From assembly GCA_913057645.1 (NCBI GenBank), contig CAJXOU010000008.1, positions 1-64,000 of the forward strand: 64,000 nucleotides of DNA, in the 5' to 3' direction. The notes under the pieces were generated by a model. That model was not told where the DNA came from and made no database searches. It worked only from the letters and a program-made list of their open reading frames with translations. Both the position numbers and the translations under genes were made by a program. Each line of letters opens with the position of its first letter. Positions within the stretch are counted from its first letter, which is position 1. Source of the stretch: an uncultured Rhodobiaceae bacterium. GTDB lineage: Bacteria; Pseudomonadota; Alphaproteobacteria; Parvibaculales; Parvibaculaceae. This document shows positions 1,492 through 64,000 of the stretch, piece by piece.

Positions 1492-1734
1492 CGCATTGCG
1501 ATGCGATGGACTCTGAATGCATTGAAGGTCGAAGCTGGTTTGTCGCTGAAACGCGGAGGAAGTTCGATGAAGAACGAGAAATTGCGCGAGAAAATCGGGC
1601 TGCGGAAAGTCGAAAAAGCCGATTGCCGTCCGATTTCATCGACGTCGAGCACGGTCTTGTCGACCGCAAGATTTTTACGGTTTTCAATGCGAGGTTTATC
1701 CGGGCGGCGATCCGCGACAAGCTGCAAGAAGGCG

Positions 1735-1961
1735 CTATCGCCGTCGAAGAGGCGACGGCCGATTTGCGCAAGCAGCGCGGCGTCACCTTGCGCAGCACGC
1801 TGGACCGGCACACCAACGATCACATGGTCTCGTTTTACATGGCAACACCATCCGGCTTCGAAGTCGAGTTCGGCACCGGCGCCCGCACGGTCGATGACAA
1901 GGATTGGAGTGTGGTGTCGCGCGAAAAGATAAGTACTTGGAGCCACGTGCCAGGGGCCTGA
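1735..1961 (+). pseudogene. Remnant of type I extradiol ring-cleavage dioxygenase (BphC/HsaC-like C-terminus)
   Basis: [41 protein letters not shown]...[10 protein letters not shown] matches the family C-terminus; the preceding part of ORF 1488..1961 does not resemble the N-terminal domain. Confidence 0.7.
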
Positions 1962-2024
1962 CGGGGTGGAGAGACAATCGCGTGCCGGTCTCGTGGCCGG
2001 CCAAACGGCGAGGAAGGAAGCGCT

Positions 2025-6978: not shown

Positions 6979-8619
6979 TCAGGTCGGCAGGGCGACGGCG
7001 ATCTCGCGCAGCTTGAACTTCTGTACCTTGCCGCTCGGTGTTCGAGGCAGTTCGCCGACGATTTCCGCCCGTTCCGGCAGGTATTGCCTCGCTACCCTGT
7101 GCTCTTCGAGGAAGGCGACCACCTCGCGCAAGCCAACCTCGCGGCCGGGCTTCGGCACGATGAACGCACATGCCCGTTCGCCCAGCCGTTCATCCGGTAC
7201 GCCGACGATCGCTACATCCTGAATGTCGGGATGACGGAAGAGCAGGCCTTCGATCTCGACCACGGGGATATTTTCGCCGCCGCGGATGATGATGTCCTTG
7301 GAGCGTCCGGTCAGCCGGATATAGCCTTGGCCGTCGATCCGCGCCAGGTCGCCTGTGCCGAACCAGCCTTCCGCGTCGTGATTGTACCAGTCCGGTCTTT
7401 TGAGATAGCCAACAAAAGTCGAACAGGCGCGAGCCTTGAGCATGCCCTCCTCGCCGGCGAGCAGGGGTTTGTTCTCGCTGTCGACCACCTGGACTTCCAT
7501 GCCTGGCAGCGCGCGTCCGTCAGTATTGATCGCCTTGTCGTCCGGATCGTCGAGGCATGTCGTTGTCACCAGGCCGTTCTCGGTCATGCCCCAGGCCGAC
7601 ACGATGTTCGCCCCGAGGATTTGCCGCGCCCGCTCGACAAGCGCGCGGGGGATGGGGGCGCCTGCCACCAGGAAGATGCGCAAACGGGATACGTCGCTCC
7701 CGTCCGCCGCCACCGTTTCGGTCAGATCGGACAGGAACGGCGTGGACGCCATGGTGAAGGTGATTCCTTCGCGGGAGATCGACGCGGAGGCGCGCTTCGG
7801 CTCCCACACATCCTGCAGAATGGCGGTCGCTCCGGCCAGAACGGGCATCACCAGCCCGTACATGAAGCCTGTCTGGTGCGCCATCGGCGACGCCATGAAC
7901 ATCACGTCGTCCGCGCCGAGCCCGAGGCGCTCGGCGCAGATGAGGATATTGGAGAGCAGCGTATTCGACGTATGCATGACGCCTTTCGGTTCGCCGGTCG
8001 TGCCGGACGTATACATCAACTGCGTTACGTCGTCGGGATCGGGCCGTCGCGCCGCGAAGAGACGGCCGGCGTCGCGCCGCTGCTCCCACGGCGTATCAAG
8101 AAGGACTTTCTCAAAGCTGGTTTCGCCGTCGCCGCTGATGACGAGCACATTCTTCAGCTGCGGCAGGCCGGCCCGGATGTTGGCCACCATGGCAGGGTAA
8201 TCGAAGCCGCGAAAGGCGCGCGGGATGACGAGTACCTTGCTTTCCGCAAGGCCAAGCATGAAGGACAATTCGCGCTCGCGAAAAATCGGCATCAATGGAT
8301 TGGTCACGGCGCCGATCCGTACGCAAGCCAGATGCAGCGCGGTGAATTGCCACCAGTTCGGCAATTGGCAGGAAACAACATCGCCTTTCTCCACGCCGAG
8401 TTCCGCGAGGCCGACCGCGATACGTTCTACGATCTTGCCTAAATCGCGGTAGCTGAGGCGGGTGGCCTTGTTCGTCATGGAGTTGAAATCGACGACGGCC
8501 GTCTTGTCCGGCATTTTGGCGATGCAACCGTCGAGATAGTCGGCGGCGGTCTTGCCCGGCCAGAAGCCGCCGGCGTTCATCGCCTCGACACGCTTCCTGG
8601 TCAGAATTGGATCGAACAT
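6979..8619 (-). CDS. Acyl-CoA synthetase, cyclohexanecarboxylate-CoA ligase-like
   Basis: MYTSGTTGEPKGVMHT AMP-binding motif, GRSKDIIIRGGENI; start chosen at MFDPILTRKRVEAMNAGG; sits beside AliB/Bad homologues. Confidence 0.85.
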   Translation of the reverse strand: MFDPILTRKRVEAMNAGGFWPGKTAADYLDGCIAKMPDKTAVVDFNSMTNKATRLSYRDLGKIVERIAVGLAELGVEKGDVVSCQLPNWWQFTALHLACVRIGAVTNPLMPIFRERELSFMLGLAESKVLVIPRAFRGFDYPAMVANIRAGLPQLKNVLVISGDGETSFEKVLLDTPWEQRRDAGRLFAARRPDPDDVTQLMYTSGTTGEPKGVMHTSNTLLSNILICAERLGLGADDVMFMASPMAHQTGFMYGLVMPVLAGATAILQDVWEPKRASASISREGITFTMASTPFLSDLTETVAADGSDVSRLRIFLVAGAPIPRALVERARQILGANIVSAWGMTENGLVTTTCLDDPDDKAINTDGRALPGMEVQVVDSENKPLLAGEEGMLKARACSTFVGYLKRPDWYNHDAEGWFGTGDLARIDGQGYIRLTGRSKDIIIRGGENIPVVEIEGLLFRHPDIQDVAIVGVPDERLGERACAFIVPKPGREVGLREVVAFLEEHRVARQYLPERAEIVGELPRTPSGKVQKFKLREIAVALPT

Positions 8620-53295: not shown

Positions 53296-53560
53296 ATGGC
53301 CATGAATGTCGGCGACGGCAAGGAAGACGACGTGATGATGGAGGTCAACACGAGCCCCTGATCGACGTCATGCTGGTGCTGCTGATCATGCTGATCATCA
53401 CCATCCCGATCCAGACCCATGCGGTGAAGCTCGACATGCCGCAGAACCTGTCAGCCCCGCCGCCCGAGACGGAGCCGCAGGTCGTCGATCTCGAACTCGA
53501 CTTCGACGGCACGGTGTTCTGGAACGGTGTCCCCGTCCCGGACCCCGGCGCGCAATGCCT
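53296..53560 (+). pseudogene. ExbD N-terminal remnant with frameshift and truncation
   Basis: MAMNVGDGKEDDVMMEVNTSP then frame change to LIDVMLVLLIMLIITIPIQTHAVKLDMPQN...DGTVFWNGVPVPD; C-terminus lost. Confidence 0.75.
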
Positions 53561-53695
53561 TCGCGACGGTCAAAGACCCGAACCCCACGTCACTCGCGCA
53601 GATATGGATCGTCCTCACCAGATGAGCGGTCCATTGACCATATCCGAACCGGAATAGAAGGCTCCGGCGACTTATCTCTTTTTCGAACCGGTCCC

Positions 53696-54481
53696 ATGAA
53701 ATGGCAAAACACAGAGCAATATGAGTGGCTTCAGGCCTTGTCGGCGCATGGGCTTGCGTGGGAATTTTTGCGCCGCAATCGCGCCTACAGGAGCGCGGCT
53801 GCAAATCTTGGCGTGACGTGGCCGCCGGATGGCAGCCCGCCCGATGAGACCTGGTCCGCCGGCGACCAAATGTCCGAGGCACGGGAATGGGGCTTGCGCC
53901 TTTTCGAAACGCCCGATCGCGACGCGCGCGAGGCGAATATTTTCTGGATGCCGGAGTTCTGCCCGAGTGTTCTTCCGGTCGTTGCGAGCCAGAATGTCGG
54001 TCACGTGTCGGGCCGGTTTCTGAATTTAAGCCGCCTGCGATGCCGCAATGTCCTCATCCCCGGAGAAGACATTCAACATCTTCTGTGCGCCGACCAGGGC
54101 CGGTTCCTGCAACTGTCTGTTACTGGCGAATGCCTTACGCGCCCGGTGCAGGTGCTTGCGAACGTCTTGCCCATGACGCCCTATTCGGAGACAAGATGGC
54201 GCGGCTTCAGGCGGCTGAACGACCTTGTGTGCACCGAGACGCTACGAACGAAATTTTATCCGCCGGACCTTGGCGCTCGACGCCTCTCCCGAGTTCTGCA
54301 GGCGCTGGACGGCTATCTCGCTGGAGCATCCCAGCGCGAGGTCGCGATTGCGCTGTTCGGTGCGGAGCGTGTCGAGGCTGACTGGCGCGATCCGCGGAAC
54401 CATCTCTGCGACCAAGTGCGCCGCGCCATTAGACGCGGCCGCGACCTGATGAATGGCGGTTATCTAAAATTGTTGCGATGA
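53696..54481 (+). CDS. DUF6499/DUF2285-like protein typical of integrative conjugative elements
   Basis: WEFLRRNRAYRSAAANLGV N-terminal region and RLSRVLQALDGYLAGASQREVAIALFG C-terminal region. Confidence 0.7.
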   Translation: MKWQNTEQYEWLQALSAHGLAWEFLRRNRAYRSAAANLGVTWPPDGSPPDETWSAGDQMSEAREWGLRLFETPDRDAREANIFWMPEFCPSVLPVVASQNVGHVSGRFLNLSRLRCRNVLIPGEDIQHLLCADQGRFLQLSVTGECLTRPVQVLANVLPMTPYSETRWRGFRRLNDLVCTETLRTKFYPPDLGARRLSRVLQALDGYLAGASQREVAIALFGAERVEADWRDPRNHLCDQVRRAIRRGRDLMNGGYLKLLR

Positions 54482-54487
54482 GGGAGC

Positions 54488-54763
54488 TCAGTGCGCCCCG
54501 GTAGTGAGAAGATGACGATAACCATTATCCGACATCCATCTGGCACGGCGCAAGTGGCTCGCCAGGGCGTTGCGGGATCGCTCGGCCTCTCGCGCGGGGT
54601 CGATACCCAGAACGATCCTCGACATCGCCTCATCCGACGCGCCGGCTGCGACGGCGTCGAGCAACCGCAGATAAACGATCAGATGACGCTCGTCATAGTC
54701 GGTGATTGTCTCCGACCAAGGGACGTCCTCGACGATCTCTGGATTGAGTTCCGGCTTAGGCAT
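54488..54763 (-). CDS. DUF2285-like small protein
   Basis: YDERHLIVYLRLLDAVAAGASDEAMSRIVLGIDPAREAERSRNALASHLRRARWM. Confidence 0.65.
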   Translation of the reverse strand: MPKPELNPEIVEDVPWSETITDYDERHLIVYLRLLDAVAAGASDEAMSRIVLGIDPAREAERSRNALASHLRRARWMSDNGYRHLLTTGAH

Positions 54764-54799
54764 GTCCCGCTCCGCTCATGGTTCCGTGCCATCCGAATA

Positions 54800-54830
54800 A
54801 CATACTATAGTTGATAAACTTAAAGTATGT
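54800..54830. promoter_or_regulatory. Inverted repeat between divergent DUF2285 and XRE genes
   Basis: ACATACT (54800-54806) / AGTATGT (54824-54830), with inner AGTT-gata-AACT dyad. Confidence 0.5.
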
Positions 54831-54849
54831 AATCCGCTGACCTCGGCGC

Positions 54850-55068
54850 ATGGATATGCGCAAGACGGTCGGCGAGAATGTCAGGCGGATCAGGCTCAAA
54901 AAGGGTCTGACCCAGGAACAGTTCGCCGAGATTTCCGGTTTCAGCCAGCAATACATCAGCGGGCTCGAACAAGGCCGCCGCAATCCAACCGTCGTGACGC
55001 TTTATGAACTCGCGACCGCGTTGGGTGTCAGTCATCTCGATCTCCTGCGTCCGGACAGATCGGGCTGA
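54850..55068 (+). CDS. XRE-family HTH regulator
   Basis: VGENVRRIRLKKGLTQEQFAEISGFSQQYISGLEQGRRNPTVVTLYELATAL. Confidence 0.9.
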   Translation: MDMRKTVGENVRRIRLKKGLTQEQFAEISGFSQQYISGLEQGRRNPTVVTLYELATALGVSHLDLLRPDRSG

Positions 55069-55215
55069 GACTCGATCACCTTGTTTTTCGGATGTGGCGA
55101 AGGGCGATCTCGTCCCATCAGTCAAGTTCGCACCGCATCAAAATATCCTAAAATGGGATAATCCGAAACTGGGATTATTTGATCGGACCGTTTCGCTTCC
55201 AGCCGGTCCGGCCGA

Positions 55216-55458
55216 ATGTCCAAGACCCTTCGCACGCCGCGTCAACGAAAGCTGCTGGCGCTGCTGATCAAGCTTCGCAAGGCGAAGGGCCTGACGCAGG
55301 CGGATGTCGCCGCGCGGCTCAAGCGCACCCAGTCCTTTGTCGCCAAATATGAAGGCGGCGAACGCCGTCTCGATATCATCGAATTCGTCGACGTCGTGCA
55401 GGCGCTTGGCGGCGATCCCGGTGACGTTCTCAAGGAACTATACAAGCCCAAGGGTTAA
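55216..55458 (+). CDS. XRE-family HTH regulator
   Basis: LLIKLRKAKGLTQADVAARLKRTQSFVAKYEGGERRLDIIEFV. Confidence 0.9.
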   Translation: MSKTLRTPRQRKLLALLIKLRKAKGLTQADVAARLKRTQSFVAKYEGGERRLDIIEFVDVVQALGGDPGDVLKELYKPKG

Positions 55459-55694
55459 GGTCGCCGCGCTCTCGCGCGGCGTCTTTGTTTGAGGCGTCTC
55501 CCCGTCACGCGTGATGGGCGGCGCTTCCTTCTAGGCCCGCCGCGGCATGCCGCAACCCTCCGCTTCCGCTCCGGGTCCTCCACTCCGTTCCGGCCTTCGG
55601 TGCGTCCCGCCTCTGACGGCGGGCCTTCCGGTCGCTTCTCGCCGCCCATCCCGCTTCCGGGAGAGACGCGGTGGGAATTGACGGGAGCTGGCCG

Positions 55695-56624
55695 ATGCGC
55701 GGAGAACATAATCGTCAGGCCGGGAGGCAGGCGGGGCCGCAGCTTTATGCCGATGTGACGGCAAAGATCGTCGCGGAGCTGGAGGCGGGCCGGGTGCCTT
55801 GGGTGCAGCCCTGGGACGAAGCAAAGGCCGGGCCCGGTCTGCCGCGCAATGCGGCGACGGGTAACACCTATTCGGGGATCAATATCCTGATCCTCTGGAG
55901 CGCCGTCATCGAGCGGTGTTTCGCCGCCCAGAACTGGCTCACCTTCCGGCAGGCGCTCTCGCTTGGCGGGCATGTGCGCAAGGGCGAGACGGGCGTGACC
56001 CTCGTCTATGCCGACCGCTTCACGCCCAAGGCGGAACGGGAACGCGCGGCGGCGGAAGGCGAGGAGGCCCGGAGGGTTCCCTTCCTCAAGCGCTTCACCG
56101 TCTTCAATGTCGCGCAGTGCGACGGCCTGCCGGGCGATCTGCTCGCACCGCCCGCCATGCTGCCGGAATGCGAGACCGTACCCGTCGCCGAGGCGCTGAT
56201 CGCGGCGACCGGCGCGGCATTCCATACCGGCGGCGCGAAGGCCTTTTATGTGCCGAGCCTCGACCGCATCGAGGTGCCGCCGCAAGCGGCCTTTCACGAG
56301 CCGATCAATTATTACCGCACCTGTTTCCATGAACTCGGCCACTGGACCGGCCATCCCTCGCGGCTGGCGCGCGACCTCTCCGGGCGGTTCGGCTCGCGCG
56401 CCTATGCGGCGGAGGAACTCGTCGCCGAAATGGCAAGCGCCTTTGCATGTGCCGCGCTCGGCATCGTGCCGACGGTGCGCCATGCCGACTATATCGCCTC
56501 ATGGCTCGACCTCTTGCGCGACGACGAGCGTGCCATCTTCCGTGCCGCGAGCCTTGCCTCAAAGGCAGCGGATTTCCTGCTGGCCTTCCGAGTGGACGGC
56601 ATAGAGCCGGGGAGGGCGGCATGA
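55695..56624 (+). CDS. ArdC-like antirestriction protein (ssDNA-binding N-terminus + zincin-like domain)
   Basis: GRVPWVQPWDEA...GNTYSGINILILW; metallopeptidase-like TCFHELGHWTGH and AAEELVAEMASAF. Confidence 0.88.
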   Translation: MRGEHNRQAGRQAGPQLYADVTAKIVAELEAGRVPWVQPWDEAKAGPGLPRNAATGNTYSGINILILWSAVIERCFAAQNWLTFRQALSLGGHVRKGETGVTLVYADRFTPKAERERAAAEGEEARRVPFLKRFTVFNVAQCDGLPGDLLAPPAMLPECETVPVAEALIAATGAAFHTGGAKAFYVPSLDRIEVPPQAAFHEPINYYRTCFHELGHWTGHPSRLARDLSGRFGSRAYAAEELVAEMASAFACAALGIVPTVRHADYIASWLDLLRDDERAIFRAASLASKAADFLLAFRVDGIEPGRAA

Positions 56625-56818
56625 GCGGACACCCGCCTCTCGATGTGGAAACAACACCGGAAGGCGAGCAGTGCCTTGTTCCGGGTGTCGCGCCGATCCG
56701 GGAACGCGACCGGCTGGCGGCCGTCATGGCCGCGCCGCTGCGGCCGCGCAAGGCCCAGAAGCCGCTCAATATCGGCCTCTTTGACGAAGACAGTCGCAAC
56801 CAGTTGAGCCTGTTCTGA
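56622..56818 (+). CDS. Small hypothetical protein of ICE backbone
   Basis: Overlaps the ArdC stop codon (ATGA); 65 aa; co-directional with flanking genes. Confidence 0.55.
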
Positions 56819-56830
56819 AGGAGACGCCCC

Positions 56831-57349
56831 ATGAAGAAATGGACCGTGCAATGCGGCTTCGCCGCCTATTACGCCAACACCGTAACGGTCGAGGCCGACA
56901 CGCTCGCGGAGGCGCTGGAGAGGGCCATCGTCGCCGCCAATGAGAGCGACGGCTGGAAGCCGCTCGACGATTGCGGCCCGACTTTTATCGATGCCGCCGC
57001 CGAAGGCGACGAGGCCGATCCGTGGCGGGACTTCGCCTCCTCGCTTCCCGTGCCGCCGCGCTTCTCGGAGTGCGGCGAGCCGGTCGCCGTGACCGTCACG
57101 GTTTCCGGCGGCGTCGTGCAACAGGTCGAGATCGAGGGCGGGCGCGCCCGCGTCCATGTCCATGACTACGACACCGAAGGTGCCGCTCCCGGCACGCCCG
57201 GCCTTCATATCGATGCGGACGGCGACACCTATGCGCTTGCCGACTGGTCGAACTTCTCTCTGCCCAATGAGGCGGCGGAGAGCCCGAGTCCCACCCAAGA
57301 GAACCGGAAAGGAGACACCAATGGAACTGCGTCACATCCCGATCGATGA
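56831..57349 (+). CDS. Hypothetical protein
   Basis: Co-directional ORF preceded by aaggag; overlaps the parB start. Confidence 0.6.
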   Translation: MKKWTVQCGFAAYYANTVTVEADTLAEALERAIVAANESDGWKPLDDCGPTFIDAAAEGDEADPWRDFASSLPVPPRFSECGEPVAVTVTVSGGVVQQVEIEGGRARVHVHDYDTEGAAPGTPGLHIDADGDTYALADWSNFSLPNEAAESPSPTQENRKGDTNGTASHPDR

Positions 57350-59039
57350 ACTGCGCCCCGCCGCGATCAATATGCGGCATGGCAAGCGCCCGCCCGATAT
57401 CGACGACATCCTGCCCTCGATCCGAGCGCGCGGCATCCTGCAGCCGTTGCTCGTGCGCCCCGTCGAGACGGAAGCGAATGCCTATGAGATCGTCGCCGGA
57501 CGGCGGCGCTATTTCTCGGCGAAAGCCGTCAGGGACGAGCAGGGCGAGGTCGAACCCTTGCCCTGTGCCGTGATGGAGCCCGGCGACGATGCCGCCGCGC
57601 TCGAAGCCTCGCTGATCGAGAACATCGCCCGTCTCGACCCCGACGAGATGAGCCAGTATGAGTGTTTCGCGCGGCTCACCCGCGAGGGCAAATCCGTCGC
57701 CGACATCGCCGCGACCTTCGGTCTCACCGAACTGATGGTGAAGCGCCGCCTCGCGCTCGGCACGCTGATCGCGCCGATCCGCGCGGCTTATCGGGCGGAG
57801 AAGATCGATGCCGCATCGATCCGTCATCTGACGCTCGCCTCGCAGGCGAAGCAGAAGGAATGGTGGAAACTCTGGAAGGAAAACCGGAATGCCTGTCCAA
57901 TGGGCCACCGGCTGAAGCAATGGCTCTTCGGCGGCCAGTCGATTGCGACCGGCGCGGCGCTCTTCCCGCTCGATACTTACGAAGGCGAAATCGTCACCGA
58001 TCTTTTCGGCGAGGAAGGGTACTTCGCCGATCCGGACCTCTTCTGGAGGAAGCAGGGTGAGGCCATTGCGGCCAAGGCAGACGCGCTGCGCGAGGCGGGT
58101 TGGGCGGAGGTGATCGTCATGGAGCCCGGCGAGCACTTCCCCGCATGGGACTATGAGAAGGTGCCGAAGAAGAAGGGCAGCAAGGTCTATGTCGAGGTCT
58201 CAGGCCGCGGCGAGGTCAGTTTCCACGAGGGCTATCTCTCCCGCGTGGAGGCGCGCCGCAGGGAGAAAAAGGAGGGTGCGGAAGCGGCGAGCAGTGCCCG
58301 GCCCGAGGTCACCAAAGCGATGCGTAACTATCTCGAACTGCATCGCCATGCCGCTATCCGCGCCGAATTGCTAGACCATCCCGGCATCGCGCTCCGCCTG
58401 ATGCTGGCCCATGCCATCGCCGGATCGGCGCTCTGGCAGGTGACGCCGGAACCGCAGAAAGCGGCGTCCGACGCCATCGCGAAAAGCCTCGCGGCCAATG
58501 TCGCCGAATGTGCCTTCCGGGGCTGGCAGGCCAATATCCGGGCCTTGCTCGGTCTGCCGGAAGAGCGCGAAAACCTCACCGCGCCGCACGGCGACGACGC
58601 AGCAACCGTCGCCCTCTTCGCCAAGCTGCTGATGCTCAATGACGAGGAAATCATGAATGTGCTTGTCACCGTGATGGGCGAGACATTGCAGGTCGGGAGC
58701 GCGGCGGTCGAGGCGCTGGCGGTGGTGCTGAAGCGCGACATGGGCCCGGTCTGGGAGCCGGACGAGACCTTCTTCGAACTGCTGCGCGACCGCAGCACGA
58801 TCAATGCGATGCTGGCCGATATCGCCGGAAAAAACGTCGCCGACCAGAACGTCGCGGAGAAGGCGTCCGTGCAGAAGCAGATCATCCGCGACTGTCTCGC
58901 GGGCACGAATGGCCGCACGAAAGTCACCACATGGCTGCCGCGCTGGATGCATGTCCCGGCCCGGGCCTATCGCGACGATGGCGGTTTCGCGCCCGCCGAG
59001 GCATGGCATCGCGTCGCCGGATATTTCGGGAAGATGTGA
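57321..59039 (+). CDS. ParB/RepB/Spo0J family partition-like protein
   Basis: IPIDELRPAAINMRHG, ILQPLLVRPV, YEIVAGRRRYFSAKAV, ENIARLDPDEMSQYECFARLTREGKSVADIAATFGLTELMVKRRLALG. Confidence 0.9.
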   Translation: MELRHIPIDELRPAAINMRHGKRPPDIDDILPSIRARGILQPLLVRPVETEANAYEIVAGRRRYFSAKAVRDEQGEVEPLPCAVMEPGDDAAALEASLIENIARLDPDEMSQYECFARLTREGKSVADIAATFGLTELMVKRRLALGTLIAPIRAAYRAEKIDAASIRHLTLASQAKQKEWWKLWKENRNACPMGHRLKQWLFGGQSIATGAALFPLDTYEGEIVTDLFGEEGYFADPDLFWRKQGEAIAAKADALREAGWAEVIVMEPGEHFPAWDYEKVPKKKGSKVYVEVSGRGEVSFHEGYLSRVEARRREKKEGAEAASSARPEVTKAMRNYLELHRHAAIRAELLDHPGIALRLMLAHAIAGSALWQVTPEPQKAASDAIAKSLAANVAECAFRGWQANIRALLGLPEERENLTAPHGDDAATVALFAKLLMLNDEEIMNVLVTVMGETLQVGSAAVEALAVVLKRDMGPVWEPDETFFELLRDRSTINAMLADIAGKNVADQNVAEKASVQKQIIRDCLAGTNGRTKVTTWLPRWMHVPARAYRDDGGFAPAEAWHRVAGYFGKM

Positions 59040-59078: not shown

Positions 59079-59394
59079 TGAGCGAATAGCTTGTTGCGCA
59101 TCGCTTGCCGCGCTCCGGTATCGCGATGGCGGCGTGATCGTGGGCGTGATTGCAGAGACAGCTATGGCGTCGTCACGCAACACGCGGGAACGCGATGCAG
59201 GCGCGCTGGGCCGCGTTCCGGCAGCAAGGTGAGGCGCATTCTTGCCCGCTCTTCGCCACGCATCTGCCGCGTCGCCCTCACTCCGCATGAGCCTTCTCCG
59301 GCATCTTCGGCGCTACCCCATTGGCGCTGAACCGATCCCTTGCTTCCGGCCTTTCATCATCCGGCCCGCCGCCTCAGGAGGCTTGGCGCGCATG

Positions 59395-59522
59395 GATCGC
59401 AGGCCGGACAGCGCCTCACCGAAAAGAACCTCAACATCCAGCCGACCATCACGGTGCGGCCCGGCTGGCCGATCCGCGTCATCGTGCAGAAGGACCTGAT
59501 CCTGCGCGCTTACCGAGGATGA
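59395..59522 (+). pseudogene. TrbI C-terminal fragment
   Basis: GQRLTEKNLNIQPTITVRPGWPIRVIVQKDLILRAYRG resembles the TrbI/VirB10 C-terminus; no N-terminal part upstream. Confidence 0.75.
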
Positions 59523-59527
59523 GAACC

Positions 59528-59833
59528 ATGCCCGACCTGAAACTCGGAAAACTCCCCGACCGCACGCCGGTCAAGATTACCTTCGCCGCACCACCCGATC
59601 TCAACAAGGCGCTCCAGGTCTATGCCGCGCTCTATCGCGAGACCTATGGCGAAGCGGAGTCCATCTCGGAACTCATTCCCTACATGCTGCAAAGCTTTCT
59701 GGAGGCCGACCGCGGCTTTGCGAGGGCTCGGAAGGATATGCCGGATATGGAGGGCAGGGGCGCGACCACCGCCCTGGATCGCGGAAGACGAATATCGAGA
59801 GCGCAACCGCTAATAACAGACAAGGAGGATTGA
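59528..59833 (+). CDS. DUF2274 domain protein (follows trbI in ICEs)
   Basis: MPDLKLGKLPDRTPVKITFAAPPDLNKALQVYAALYRETYGEAESISELIPYMLQSFLEADRGF. Confidence 0.8.
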   Translation: MPDLKLGKLPDRTPVKITFAAPPDLNKALQVYAALYRETYGEAESISELIPYMLQSFLEADRGFARARKDMPDMEGRGATTALDRGRRISRAQPLITDKED

Positions 59834-59834
59834 G

Positions 59835-60143
59835 ATGTCTGTGATCGGGATGTTCACGCCGACCAGGGAGGGTGGCTGGTCCGGCACGATTCGGACGCTC
59901 ACTATCGATGCGAAGCTGCGCTTCGTGCCGAACGACAATCGGGACAGCGAACGGGCACCGGCGTTCAAACTGTTCGTTGGTCGCTCAGAGGTCGGCGCCG
60001 CATGGCGGGAGCGGGGCGGTGAGAAGGAGTATCTGAGTGTCCGGCTCGACGATCCGGTACTGGCAGCGCCCGTTCATGCGGCGCTGTTCCCGGCGGAGGG
60101 TGGGGAGGAGGCCCATCTCGTCTGGAGGCGGCGGGAAGGTTAG
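59835..60143 (+). CDS. DUF736 domain protein
   Basis: MSVIGMFTPTREGGWSGTIRTLTIDAKLRFVPNDNRDSERAPAFKLFVGRSEVGAAW. Confidence 0.85.
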   Translation: MSVIGMFTPTREGGWSGTIRTLTIDAKLRFVPNDNRDSERAPAFKLFVGRSEVGAAWRERGGEKEYLSVRLDDPVLAAPVHAALFPAEGGEEAHLVWRRREG

Positions 60144-60173
60144 ACGCGGGCCGGTGGGGCGTTTGATGATGCA

Positions 60174-60213
60174 ACAAAACCTCGGACGTTAGCCCTATGG
60201 TCCGAGGTTTTGT
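60174..60213 (+). terminator. Perfect stem-loop between DUF736 gene and abiE-like operon
   Basis: ACAAAACCTCGGAC / GTCCGAGGTTTTGT, 14-bp perfect arms, 12-nt loop. Confidence 0.55.
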
Positions 60214-60291
60214 GACACGTCTTTTGAGTGGCTCCGGCTCCAGACGGTCCGAGCCTAGCCTGCCGACTTGGAGGCCGAATGTCTTAGAACT

Positions 60292-60371
60292 TTCCCAATT
60301 CTTGGGAAGGCTATATTTTAAATATGGTTTGAGACGGACTTGACAAAGTATTGTCTATCCGAACATACTTT
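60292..60371. promoter_or_regulatory. Cluster of inverted repeats upstream of abiEi-like gene
   Basis: TTCCCAA-ttc-TTGGGAA (60292-60308); ATATTT-t-AAATAT; AAAGTAT (60345-60351)/ATACTTT (60365-60371); TTGACA at 60340-60345. Confidence 0.55.
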
Positions 60372-60433
60372 CTTCATCGGAGGTAAAACCATATCTGATA
60401 TATTTCTTTTTCCGATTATAAGAAAGTCTGATC

Positions 60434-61243
60434 ATGTCCCGGCTCGTTTCAGCCCCGTTTTTCAGCGCCAGGCCGGTCTTCGACCGGGCCGAGTATGCCG
60501 CCGCGGTCGGCCGTCGCCCCGACGACAAGGTGGTCACGGCGATGCTCTCCCAGCATCTTCGGGCCGGCAATATCAAGCGCATCGCGCGGGGCGTTTTCGC
60601 GTCCGTCCCAAAGCATGCCGATTCCGCCAAGTGGTCGGTCGATCGTTTCCTGGCGGCATCCCGCCTGCGGCGCCGCGGCGTTATCGCCTATCACTCGGCC
60701 CTCGAGCTTCACGGCTGTGCTTATACGGAAGGCCACGAGGTGCAGGTCATCGCACCCGGCGAGCCGGGCGTCGTCGAGACTGCGGATTTCTCGTGCCGGT
60801 TCGTGAAACCGCCGCGTGGCATCGCCTCGAAAAACGGAAGCCTGATGGACGGCGTTACGGTCGTCGATCGCATGGGGCTCGACGTTCGCGTAACGACAAT
60901 CGAGCGGACGATCGCCGACCTTTTTGATCGGTATGATCTTGCCGGCGGCGCAGAGGAGCTTTTCAATTCGCTTGACTTGGTCGCGCGCGTCGACACCGCC
61001 GCCTTGGTCCGGCATGCACGCGCGCTCGGCAACGCGACGGCGGTCGGCGCCTTGGGATATTGGCTGGAGCGCGAACAGGACCGGCTCGATGTAGAAAGCG
61101 CCGCGCTCAAAAAGCTGCACGCGCTCGCCCCGCGACAAGCGCGATACGCCTTAGCCACCAAACCGGGCGAAGGCCGGACGGCCGCGGGGTGGAACGTGAT
61201 CCTGCCCGTTGAGGTCATAGAGCCTCAGTTCGAGGGGGTGTAA
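60434..61243 (+). CDS. AbiEi-like antitoxin / transcriptional regulator of type IV TA system
   Basis: N-terminal winged-helix-like region (QHLRAGNIKRIARGVFAS), YHSALELHG, VTTIERTIADLFDRYDLAGG; directly followed by nucleotidyltransferase. Confidence 0.8.
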   Translation: MSRLVSAPFFSARPVFDRAEYAAAVGRRPDDKVVTAMLSQHLRAGNIKRIARGVFASVPKHADSAKWSVDRFLAASRLRRRGVIAYHSALELHGCAYTEGHEVQVIAPGEPGVVETADFSCRFVKPPRGIASKNGSLMDGVTVVDRMGLDVRVTTIERTIADLFDRYDLAGGAEELFNSLDLVARVDTAALVRHARALGNATAVGALGYWLEREQDRLDVESAALKKLHALAPRQARYALATKPGEGRTAAGWNVILPVEVIEPQFEGV

Positions 61244-62221
61244 ATGGCGGCGCCCTCGACCCAGACCCTGCAGCGCATCGCCAGCGAGACCGGTCATCAG
61301 GTCGGCACGATCGAGAAGGTGATGCGCCTTCTCGACATCCTGCAGGAGATCGCTCGCGACCGGATTCTGAGCGAGCAATTCGCCCTCAAGGGCGGCACGG
61401 CGCTCAACGTCTTTCATCTCGGTCTCGACCGTCTGTCGGTCGATATCGACCTCAACTATGTCGGCGCGCTCGATCGTGCGGCGATGGAAACTGAGCGGCC
61501 GCAGCTTGAGGCGGCTCTGGGCCGACTGCTGGCGTCCCAAGGATACGACATCCGTCGCCAGCCTGACGAGCATGCCGGTGGCAAGTGGATCATGCGCTTT
61601 GCGTCGGCGCTCGGCGGAAACGCGACGCTTGAGCTCGACGTGAACTACATGGCGCGTCAGCCTCTGTTCGGCACCGCCCGCGTATCGTCGGTCGCGCTTG
61701 GAGAAGTGCGTGCAAGCGACGTGCTGGTGCTCGATATTCATGAGGTCGTCGCCGGCAAGCTCGTCGCACTCTTCGATCGCCATGCCGCACGCGACCTTTT
61801 CGATGCGCGCCGTATCCTGTCGATTGAGGGACTGGACTGGAAGAACATCAAAGCCGCGTTTCTCGCGTTCGGCGCCTGCGCGCGCCGGGATTGGCGAGCG
61901 GTTTCGACCGACGCGATCAAGGGCGACCCGCGGGAGCTTCGTCAGAAACTTATGATCTGCCTGCCGCGCGGTTACTTCGGCGGCAAAGACGAGATCGATG
62001 CGTGGATCGAGGAGACGGTCGCGCTCTGCCGGGAGCGATTTGTACTTCTATTTGATCTGACCGCGACCGAGCGGGATTTTCTCGATGGCGTTCTCGACCG
62101 CGGTGAGATCAACCCTGATCTGCTTGATGTGGCGCCCGAGGTACGGACGAGGATTGGTGCCATGCCGATGCTCGCCTGGAAATGTCAGCATGTTCGGAAA
62201 CATCGGGGATTGGACCGATAG
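61244..62221 (+). CDS. AbiEii/AbiGii-type nucleotidyltransferase toxin
   Basis: EQFALKGGTALNVFHLGLDRLSVDIDLNYVG nucleotidyltransferase motif. Confidence 0.85.
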   Translation: MAAPSTQTLQRIASETGHQVGTIEKVMRLLDILQEIARDRILSEQFALKGGTALNVFHLGLDRLSVDIDLNYVGALDRAAMETERPQLEAALGRLLASQGYDIRRQPDEHAGGKWIMRFASALGGNATLELDVNYMARQPLFGTARVSSVALGEVRASDVLVLDIHEVVAGKLVALFDRHAARDLFDARRILSIEGLDWKNIKAAFLAFGACARRDWRAVSTDAIKGDPRELRQKLMICLPRGYFGGKDEIDAWIEETVALCRERFVLLFDLTATERDFLDGVLDRGEINPDLLDVAPEVRTRIGAMPMLAWKCQHVRKHRGLDR

Positions 62222-62328
62222 ATGCCAATGGTCAAACTGCGTCATTTGGTTCCAGTCGGCGACAGTGGACTCATTCAAATCTTGTTCACATTCTCGGAAT
62301 CTCACATTCCGTCAGCCGCAAGTATCGG

Positions 62329-62350
62329 TGGTTGCGGGCCCCCGCAACCA
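62329..62350. other. Candidate attachment site / tRNA-fMet 3'-end scar
   Basis: TGGTTGCGGGccCCCGCAACCA; CCCCCGCAACCA (62339-62350) matches the 3' end typical of initiator tRNA genes and is followed directly by a terminator. Confidence 0.55.
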
Positions 62351-62354
62351 AATC

Positions 62355-62388
62355 AAAAGCCCGCAGGATTTTTCCTGCGGGCTTTTTT
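62355..62388 (+). terminator. Rho-independent terminator
   Basis: AGCCCGCAGGA-tttt-TCCTGCGGGCT followed by a T-run. Confidence 0.88.
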
Positions 62389-62426: not shown

Positions 62427-63095
62427 ATGGTGGCCGCCGAATTCGATCAGGAAGGCGAACTTGTCGGGATGGACGGAAATCCGTTGCAGGGCGTGAGTTT
62501 CGGGGAGGCGGCGAAAGGTGTCGTCGCGATGGCGCGGTTCGCGGGCGCGCGCGGCTGGGTGCCGGCGACGAGCGGCAATTTTTCCGTAAGGTTGGATGAA
62601 GAAAGGGCGGCGCTGACCGCGACGGGCGCGAACAAGGCCGAGCTCGACGAGACAGGCGTGATCGAGGCGGAGATCGCCGGGCCGAAGCATCCGCGGGCGT
62701 CGGCCGAAGCGCCGCTTCATCTCATGCGCTACCGCGCTGCGCCCGAAATCGGCGCCATCGCCCATGTGCACGGGCTCGCGGCTACCGTTCTCTCGCGGCG
62801 GCACGAGACGGCGGGACATATCCGGCTCGAGGGCTGGGAGCTCCTGAAGGCGTTTCCGGGCATCGATACGCATGAAGCCCATCTCGACATTCCGATCGTT
62901 CCGAACGACCAGGACACGGACAGGCTGGCGGCGCTGGTCGAGGAAAGACTGGCGGCGGGCGGGCCCTTCCACGGTTACCTCATCGCGGGTCACGGCCTAT
63001 ATGTATGGGGACGGACTGCGGCGGAAACGATCCGCCATATGGAAGCATTCGATTTTCTGCTGACCGCACAGATGCATGAGGAGGGCGCACGATGA
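62427..63095 (+). CDS. mtnB: Methylthioribulose-1-phosphate dehydratase
   Basis: RGWVPATSGNFSVRLDE class II aldolase fold; IAHVHGLAATVLSR; operon with mtnD and mtnC. Confidence 0.92.
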   Translation: MVAAEFDQEGELVGMDGNPLQGVSFGEAAKGVVAMARFAGARGWVPATSGNFSVRLDEERAALTATGANKAELDETGVIEAEIAGPKHPRASAEAPLHLMRYRAAPEIGAIAHVHGLAATVLSRRHETAGHIRLEGWELLKAFPGIDTHEAHLDIPIVPNDQDTDRLAALVEERLAAGGPFHGYLIAGHGLYVWGRTAAETIRHMEAFDFLLTAQMHEEGAR

Positions 63096-63646
63096 CCCGG
63101 CTCACCATTTATCCCGACACCGATCCCCAGACCGTTCTGCTCGAAACGAGCGACGGCGGCAAGATCGCAGCGGAACTTGCCACGATCGGCGTTTCCTTCG
63201 AGCGGTGGGAAGCACCTCATGCGCTTGGCGAAGACGCCGATCAGGATGCGGTGCTCGCCGCGTATGAGCGAGACGTTGCCCGGATCATGGAAGAAGGTGG
63301 CTACAAGAGCGTGGATGTCGTGCGCGTCAAACCCGACAATCCGAACCGCACCGAACTCCGGCAGAAATTCCTGGCAGAGCACACGCATGACGACGACGAA
63401 GTGCGTTTCTTCGTGGATGGCGCCGGCGCGTTCTATCTCAGAAGGGACGGCCGGGTGTTCCAGGTCGTCTGCGAGCGCAACGACCTGATCAGCGTGCCGG
63501 CCGGAATCACGCACTGGTTCGACACAGGCCCCGCGCCCGATTTCTGCGCGATCCGTATCTTCACGACGCCGGAGGGCTGGGTCGGCCATTTCACCGGCGA
63601 CGACATCGCGACCCGCTTTCCGAAATTCGAAAGCGAGACGGCATGA
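63092..63646 (+). CDS. mtnD: Acireductone dioxygenase
   Basis: FLAEHTHDDDEVRFFVDGAGAFYLR metal-binding cupin motif; GITHWFDTG. Confidence 0.93.
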   Translation: MTRLTIYPDTDPQTVLLETSDGGKIAAELATIGVSFERWEAPHALGEDADQDAVLAAYERDVARIMEEGGYKSVDVVRVKPDNPNRTELRQKFLAEHTHDDDEVRFFVDGAGAFYLRRDGRVFQVVCERNDLISVPAGITHWFDTGPAPDFCAIRIFTTPEGWVGHFTGDDIATRFPKFESETA

Positions 63647-64000
63647 CGGCGATCCGCGCCGTCGTGACCGACATCGAGGGAACGACGACACCTCTCGCCT
63701 TTGTGCACGAGGTTCTGTTCCCTTATGCGCGAAAACGGCTTCGGCAATTCGTGAAGGAACATGAAGACAACCGGCAAGTCGCTGCGGCGCTTGCCGAAGC
63801 ACGTGAGCTTGGCGGCATCGGAGAGGCCGATGCGGATGGGACCGCCGATCTTCTGCTCTCCTGGATGGACGAAGACCGGAAAGCCGGACCGCTCAAGCTT
63901 CTTCAGGGGCTGATATGGCGGCAGGGCTATGAAGAGGGCGCTCTCAAGGGCGAAATCTACGAAGACGCCGCCGCGCTGCTCGAACAGTGGCACGAGCGGG
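63643..64000 (+). CDS. mtnC: Enolase-phosphatase E1 (truncated by window end)
   Basis: AVVTDIEGTTTPLAFVHEVLFPYAR; LQGLIWRQGYEEG. Confidence 0.92.
   Translation, partial: MTAIRAVVTDIEGTTTPLAFVHEVLFPYARKRLRQFVKEHEDNRQVAAALAEARELGGIGEADADGTADLLLSWMDEDRKAGPLKLLQGLIWRQGYEEGALKGEIYEDAAALLEQWHER

Follow-up and report, generated by a model that had tools for sequence, protein, structure and literature searches.

We are highly confident that the dyad near the right-hand end of the window (the whole 64,000-nt stretch of DNA that was analysed) is the attR of an ICE that entered the gene of the initiator tRNA, tRNA-fMet, through the action of a large serine recombinase (LSR), and that the copy present here is probably immobile. 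What is surprising about this element lies outside the window, namely the enzyme class, the palindromic attachment site and a recombinase reading frame that runs into the initiator tRNA.

The attachment scar, its empty site and its filled sites

The dyad, TGGTTGCGGG-CC-CCCGCAACCA, occupies positions 62329-62350 of the window, exactly as a 10-bp dyad had been described in the first-pass annotation, and ends in the 12-mer CCCCCGCAACCA (62339-62350), which the same annotation had likened to the 3' end of bacterial initiator tRNA genes. The likeness holds, as the tRNA-fMet gene of the uninterrupted locus L050 (see below) aligns with it, and because the last base of the T-stem agrees as well between window and tRNA-fMet, the shared block comprises 13 bp (GCCCCCGCAACCA). 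The window contains a single copy of the 12-mer and the whole 3.75-Mb assembly just two, the second lying within an apparent crotonase (enoyl-CoA hydratase) coding gene, where we read it as a chance occurrence. No tRNA gene was found in the 64,000-nt window, in keeping with the earlier remark that no tRNA body precedes the scar. Of the trailer that had been noted behind the tRNA end, the strong terminator stands, its hairpin at 62355-62388 having a predicted folding energy of -27.9 kcal/mol; the motif AAATC does not, as its first A belongs to CCA, after which the bases are AATCAAAAGCCC. The features of the window are the following:

59-62338, plus strand: right-hand part of the integrated element, of which 59-59401 is collinear with the element of two relatives, G010 and G013
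59-53000, strand not specified: catabolic cargo, with genes for P450s, Rieske oxygenases, a Baeyer-Villiger-type (flavin) monooxygenase, HpaB, an extradiol dioxygenase, FAA hydrolase, acyl-CoA dehydrogenases, CoA ligases and thiolase
53555-59039, strand not specified: ICE maintenance genes (RovC/DUF2285-type regulators, two HTH proteins, the anti-restriction protein ArdC, a ParB-like protein)
59321-59833, plus strand: DUF2274 protein gene, which follows trbI in the intact element
59385-59504, plus strand: trbI remnant, final 40 profile positions (codons) only
60434-62221, plus strand: AbiEi/AbiEii-type toxin-antitoxin pair in the variable right end, where G010 has other genes
62329-62350, plus strand: attR core, the 22-bp dyad, with an element-derived left arm, a 2-bp centre and the tRNA-fMet 3' end as right arm
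62339-62350, plus strand: duplicated tRNA-fMet 3' end, CCCCCGCAACCA (13 bp with the preceding G), from alignment to the empty site L050
62355-62388, plus strand: original chromosomal rrn/tRNA-fMet operon terminator, also found behind the intact tRNA-fMet in L050 and supported by its fold
62469-64000, plus strand: chromosomal flank mtnB-mtnD-mtnC, 77-79% identical to G013/G010 versus 97.7% for the element (start of mtnB uncertain; mtnC cut off by the window end)

The empty counterpart of this site is found in Parvibaculum sp. HXMU1428-15 (L050), in which the 23S end, 5S, tRNA-fMet (782-858), the terminator and mtnB follow one another without interruption. Aligned with this locus, the window matches from GCCCCCGCAACCA through the terminator into mtnB and is unrelated to it left of GCCCCCGCAACCA, and at the level of the alignment such a break is the pattern of an insertion into a tRNA 3' end. 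A relative with tRNA-fMet directly upstream of mtnB, a possibility that had been raised from the window alone, thus exists, is free of the island and has the same terminator, and the rrn/tRNA-fMet operon's own terminator has been left behind on the right-hand side of the element.

Filled sites are provided by two further genomes. In another Parvibaculum (G010), tRNA-fMet (c110796-110872), the element and the dyad (7069-7090, 1.4 kb from mtnB) all lie on one contig, NZ_JAUYUS010000052.1, and in the single 3,914,745-bp chromosome of P. lavamentivorans DS-1 (G013) the order is 23S-5S-tRNA-fMet (1906619-1906695), element and dyad (2010401-2010422). From CCA to CCA the element spans 103,727 bp in both. 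The two copies are ~100.0% identical over 103.7 kb, compared with only 80.9% for the right flank; this contrast between element and flank marks a recent horizontal transfer and places the boundaries of the element at the tRNA and the dyad. Judged by these identities, a degradative ICE has moved very recently between Parvibaculum species, DS-1 included. Window positions 59-59401 are collinear with the same element at 94.6-97.7% identity, and in the comparison with DS-1 the element reaches 97.7% and the mtn flank 77-78%. Hence attL and attR are accompanied by an empty attB (L050) and by filled sites (G010, G013), and these comparisons bear out the earlier view of an island boundary created by insertion into a tRNA 3' end, with core metabolism (mtnB-mtnD-mtnC) beginning downstream in the chromosomal flank from 62469. 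The intact tRNA-fMet with a matching repeat at the far end, which that view implied, is present in the two relatives; the window's own assembly is without tRNA-fMet.

A degradative ICE and its reduced copy

In G010 and G013, the intact copies encode TraG, TrbE, TrbL, TrbF-like (VirB8), TrbG-like (CagX) and TrbI proteins together with a DUF3363 relaxase, so that relaxase, coupling protein and T4SS are all found in these copies, and not in that of the window. The combination of conjugation and maintenance genes with ~53 kb of catabolic genes characterizes the element as an ICE with degradative cargo. The paper on the DS-1 genome remarks on abundant P450 and acyl-CoA enzyme genes (PMC3368416). 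It has no wording such as 'island', 'integrase' or 'conjuga-' and apparently no description of the 103.7-kb element (1906696-2010422 of DS-1).

Contig C147 (5000 bp) provides the left end of the element in the window genome, a Parvibaculum; it is 97.9% identical to the intact left end and shares a 15-bp overlap with the start of the window, which lies on contig C8. No initiator tRNA is present among the 42 tRNAs of this assembly, because C147 stops ~350 bp short of it, and the attL of the window genome is therefore deduced from C147 and the relatives. The LSR gene on C147 contains one extra base, a 1-bp frameshift that might be an assembly error. With respect to G010/G013, moreover, 24.6 kb carrying the relaxase gene, traG and the trb operon have been lost at a junction near 59397-59401, which lies within one contig, and no second TrbI was found in the whole window genome. 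That the copy could nevertheless be a functional, self-transmissible ICE, as its intact attR, regulators, ArdC, ParB and cargo might indicate, is hardly credible in the face of this deletion, the trbI stub and the frameshifted recombinase; given the loss of the conjugation operon and the recombinase frame, the element copy is probably immobile. It is extremely improbable that the mobile element comprises 53.5-62.3 kb only, with the catabolic genes at 1-53 kb belonging to the core. All ICE hallmark genes of the window do fall within 53.5-62.3 kb, but the catabolic genes lie inside the tRNA-fMet-bounded 103.7-kb element of G010/G013, at ~100% identity between these two.

Several local differences from the intact element were also seen. 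Positions 1-58 of the window have no counterpart in the intact element or in the adjoining C147 and are probably a contig-end assembly artefact. A stretch of ~415 bp of the window (1549-1962) is missing from the G010/G013 element, the BLAST matches stopping at window position 1548 and restarting at 1963; a small ORF (1488-1961) to which no Pfam family matched is covered by it. Identity to the DS-1 element is 90% between 30001 and 32000, against 95% and 100% in the adjacent stretches, a dip that suggests mosaic exchange among the catabolic genes. Gene content varies at the element's right end, with AbiEi/AbiEii in the window (60138-62264) and a GGDEF-type protein, large ORFs and a different AbiEii-like gene in G010 (L090, 7154-20000).

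The serine recombinase, its deduced palindromic site and its reading frame

An integrase gene beside the tRNA end, as foreseen in the first-pass annotation, was found, though it encodes a serine recombinase, unlike the usual tyrosine integrase. The gene at attL carries Resolvase, Recombinase and Zn-ribbon domains, the composition of an LSR, and its product matches the TP901-1 integrase. Joining the ends of the element yields a deduced attP, CGCAAGTATCGGTGGTTGCGGG-CC-CCCGCAACCAACGATACTTGCG. This 46-bp sequence is an almost perfect palindrome about a central CC, its arms being symmetric at 21 of 22 positions, as is characteristic of the dyad of a serine-integrase site; the attP expected in the circle of DS-1 is CGCAAGTATCGGTGGTTGCGGGCCCCCGCAACCAACGATACTTGCG. 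The dyad of the window is explained accordingly, because attR consists of the left half of the palindromic attP and a tRNA end that equals the right arm. The central dinucleotide coincides with tRNA positions 65-66, and the centre of the dyad is TC in two genomes whose tRNA-fMet has T65 (G313, G400) and CC in genomes with C65. This tracking of tRNA position 65 supports the proposed crossover position, the exact bases of which are deduced from sequence comparison.

These observations lead us to propose that the LSR pairs the palindromic attP with the tRNA-fMet 3' end and that strand exchange would take place at the central dinucleotide, that is, at tRNA positions 65-66. Being identical to the tRNA 3' end, the right arm of attP would rebuild this end at attL, and the tRNA would be restored on integration, with the original tRNA end and its terminator staying behind at attR. 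The element would also provide a new terminator behind the rRNA operon: a strong element-borne hairpin with a T-run directly follows CCA at attL, attR retains the original terminator, and most related loci have a comparable hairpin behind the tRNA end. For this reason the terminator of the rRNA operon, like the tRNA end, has probably been replaced by that of the element.

Two other origins of the scar can be weighed against this proposal. An ordinary palindrome, i.e., an extra terminator stem or a REP-like repeat that resembles a tRNA by chance, would account for a perfect 10-bp dyad beside a terminator, but carries virtually no weight. With its two centre bases left free, the dyad is present in 8 of 385 alphaproteobacterial genomes (reversed control, 0/385), and with one mismatch allowed it is found in 7 of 27 Parvibaculum genomes. 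At L085, L108, L111 and L112 the element-side flank of the window's attR recurs next to different chromosomal flanks. Furthermore, the dyad centre follows tRNA position 65, the whole tRNA stands at this place in the empty site, and the 12-mer is nearly unique in the genome. It is also very unlikely that the scar was made by a tyrosine-integrase element with the LSR as a mere passenger, even though most tRNA-targeting ICEs use tyrosine integrases (PMC4701971, PMC8627217). Within the element no such gene was detected, PF00589 having no match in 1906696-2010400 of DS-1 nor on contig C14 of G010; the LSR gene lies immediately beside attL, and throughout the class its homologues are found time and again next to tRNA-fMet; and a palindromic attP with a 2-bp centre suits a serine recombinase. 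The window genome does possess tyrosine integrases, including two close to tRNA-Ser and tRNA-Gln genes; these are encoded on different contigs and have no relation to the scar site. A tripartite ICE of the ICEMcSym1271 type, with IntM at a met-tRNA (PMC5882170), was considered and rejected, because its three tyrosine recombinases and att pairs are not found here and a single recombinase with a single pair of sites suffices in G010/G013.

The proposed LSR-mediated insertion into tRNA-fMet would have a further consequence for the recombinase itself. In all LSR genes located ≤700 bp from tRNA-fMet among 30 loci, the reading frame passes without a stop through the terminator-coding linker and attL and continues on the tRNA's antisense strand. 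The tail encoded in the integrated state ends in VAGAGFEPATFRL or a very similar sequence, and its stop codon lies across from the anticodon; the LSR gene of L148 has, besides this tRNA-antisense frame, a frame break further upstream. When identical copies were merged and L126 and L127 added, 15 distinct LSR genes resulted, and all 15 enter tRNA-fMet in one and the same phase, with linkers that differ in length, although, as LSR homologues share ancestry, they do not represent 15 independent events. In the deduced G013/G010 circle, by comparison, the tail would come from the other end of the element and read VAGARNHRYLRLTECEIPRA before the stop. Because the frame crosses the attachment site into the antisense tRNA, integration swaps the encoded C-terminus of the LSR, and the phase, kept despite changes in linker length, suggests that the frame has been preserved. 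Since these bases also make up the attP arm, a constraint at the level of DNA may likewise account for the kept tail. The antisense-tRNA tail is a prediction from the reading frame, and we suggest only tentatively, as a rather unlikely possibility, that the swapped tail may report the integration state to the LSR, for example through stability or a bias between integration and excision.

Distribution, meaning and relation to known systems

Close homologues of the LSR (E <= 1e-60) were found in 33 of the 385 sampled alphaproteobacterial genomes, several of them with a complete or a 3'-half tRNA-fMet right behind the gene. Elements are stacked at this site: at L113 an element end of this type directly adjoins another element, whose LSR is 51% identical, and L124, with one site between two convergent LSR genes, looks like the junction of two neighbouring elements. 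Loci with the dyad and an adjacent LSR gene (L113, L118, L122-L124, L130) were no longer counted as attR; L113 and L124 are better described as such junctions, and L118, L122, L123 and L130 could be junctions or copies of attP. Paired tRNA-fMet scars ~128 bp apart (L109, 1374 and 1501; L122, 3146 and 3274) suggest repeated insertions at one site. At L116, L119, L127, L129 and L139 the LSR is followed only by the tRNA-fMet 3' half from the anticodon loop, without the 5' half; these loci probably represent copies of attP, or else junctions, in which the stretch identical to the tRNA is longer, and since the identity reaches the anticodon loop, crossover may take place at different points in different subfamilies. 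Target choice also varies within the family, as some related LSRs lie directly next to other tRNA genes: those at L131 (tRNA-Met) and L136 (tRNA-Glu) likewise read into the tRNA, and that at L132 (tRNA-Thr) does so in another phase.

In engineering, serine integrases are highly valued tools. The attP/attB pair deduced here is short and built on a tRNA, and it can be tested directly across a broad bacterial class. The in-frame fusion of recombinase and antisense tRNA opens a state-dependent integrase tail to testing. The degradative ICE can be observed both as a recent transfer among Parvibaculum, including the surfactant degrader DS-1, and as a relic without transfer genes. The target of this widespread alphaproteobacterial LSR group may be the sole initiator tRNA gene, as DS-1 has one tRNA-fMet match and one rRNA operon (PMC3368416).

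No report of an LSR-ICE at tRNA-fMet, of this palindromic attP or of an antisense-tRNA tail was found in the part of the literature covered. The use of trb-type T4SSs by ICEs and the targeting of tRNA 3' ends are well known, and LSRs at tRNA genes, a use of such genes that has been called rare (PMC3218068), have precedents. The Paracoccus aminophilus prophage phi-Pam-6 likewise combines an alphaproteobacterial serine recombinase with a tRNA-Met gene, is induced by mitomycin C and is flanked by a 17-bp repeat of the tRNA 3' end, CCCTCCTCCGCTACCAT; it differs in being a phage rather than an ICE and in a target that, by its repeat, looks like an elongator tRNA-Met, and the available part of the report describes neither a palindromic attP nor a frame into the tRNA (PMC3925955). 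As cited elsewhere, phi-RSM1 (tRNA-Ser) and Mycobacterium AICEs (tRNA-Leu) also employ serine recombinases to enter tRNA genes, but the former is a filamentous phage, the latter are actinobacterial, and the tRNAs are other than tRNA-fMet (PMC3218068). Tn4371- and ICEMlSym-like ICEs share with the present element the trb-type T4SS, relaxase, ArdC, ParB and DUF2285 regulators, and in some cases degradative cargo, whereas nearly all of them have a tyrosine integrase in place of an LSR at tRNA-fMet (PMC8627217, PMC9960961). A parallel to the exchanged recombinase tail is provided by streptococcal rumA ICEs with a single serine integrase, in which the att site lies in the integrase gene and 3' ends are exchanged with the target; there, however, the target is a protein gene, and here the exchanged part is tRNA antisense and is restored on its own strand (PMC4701971).
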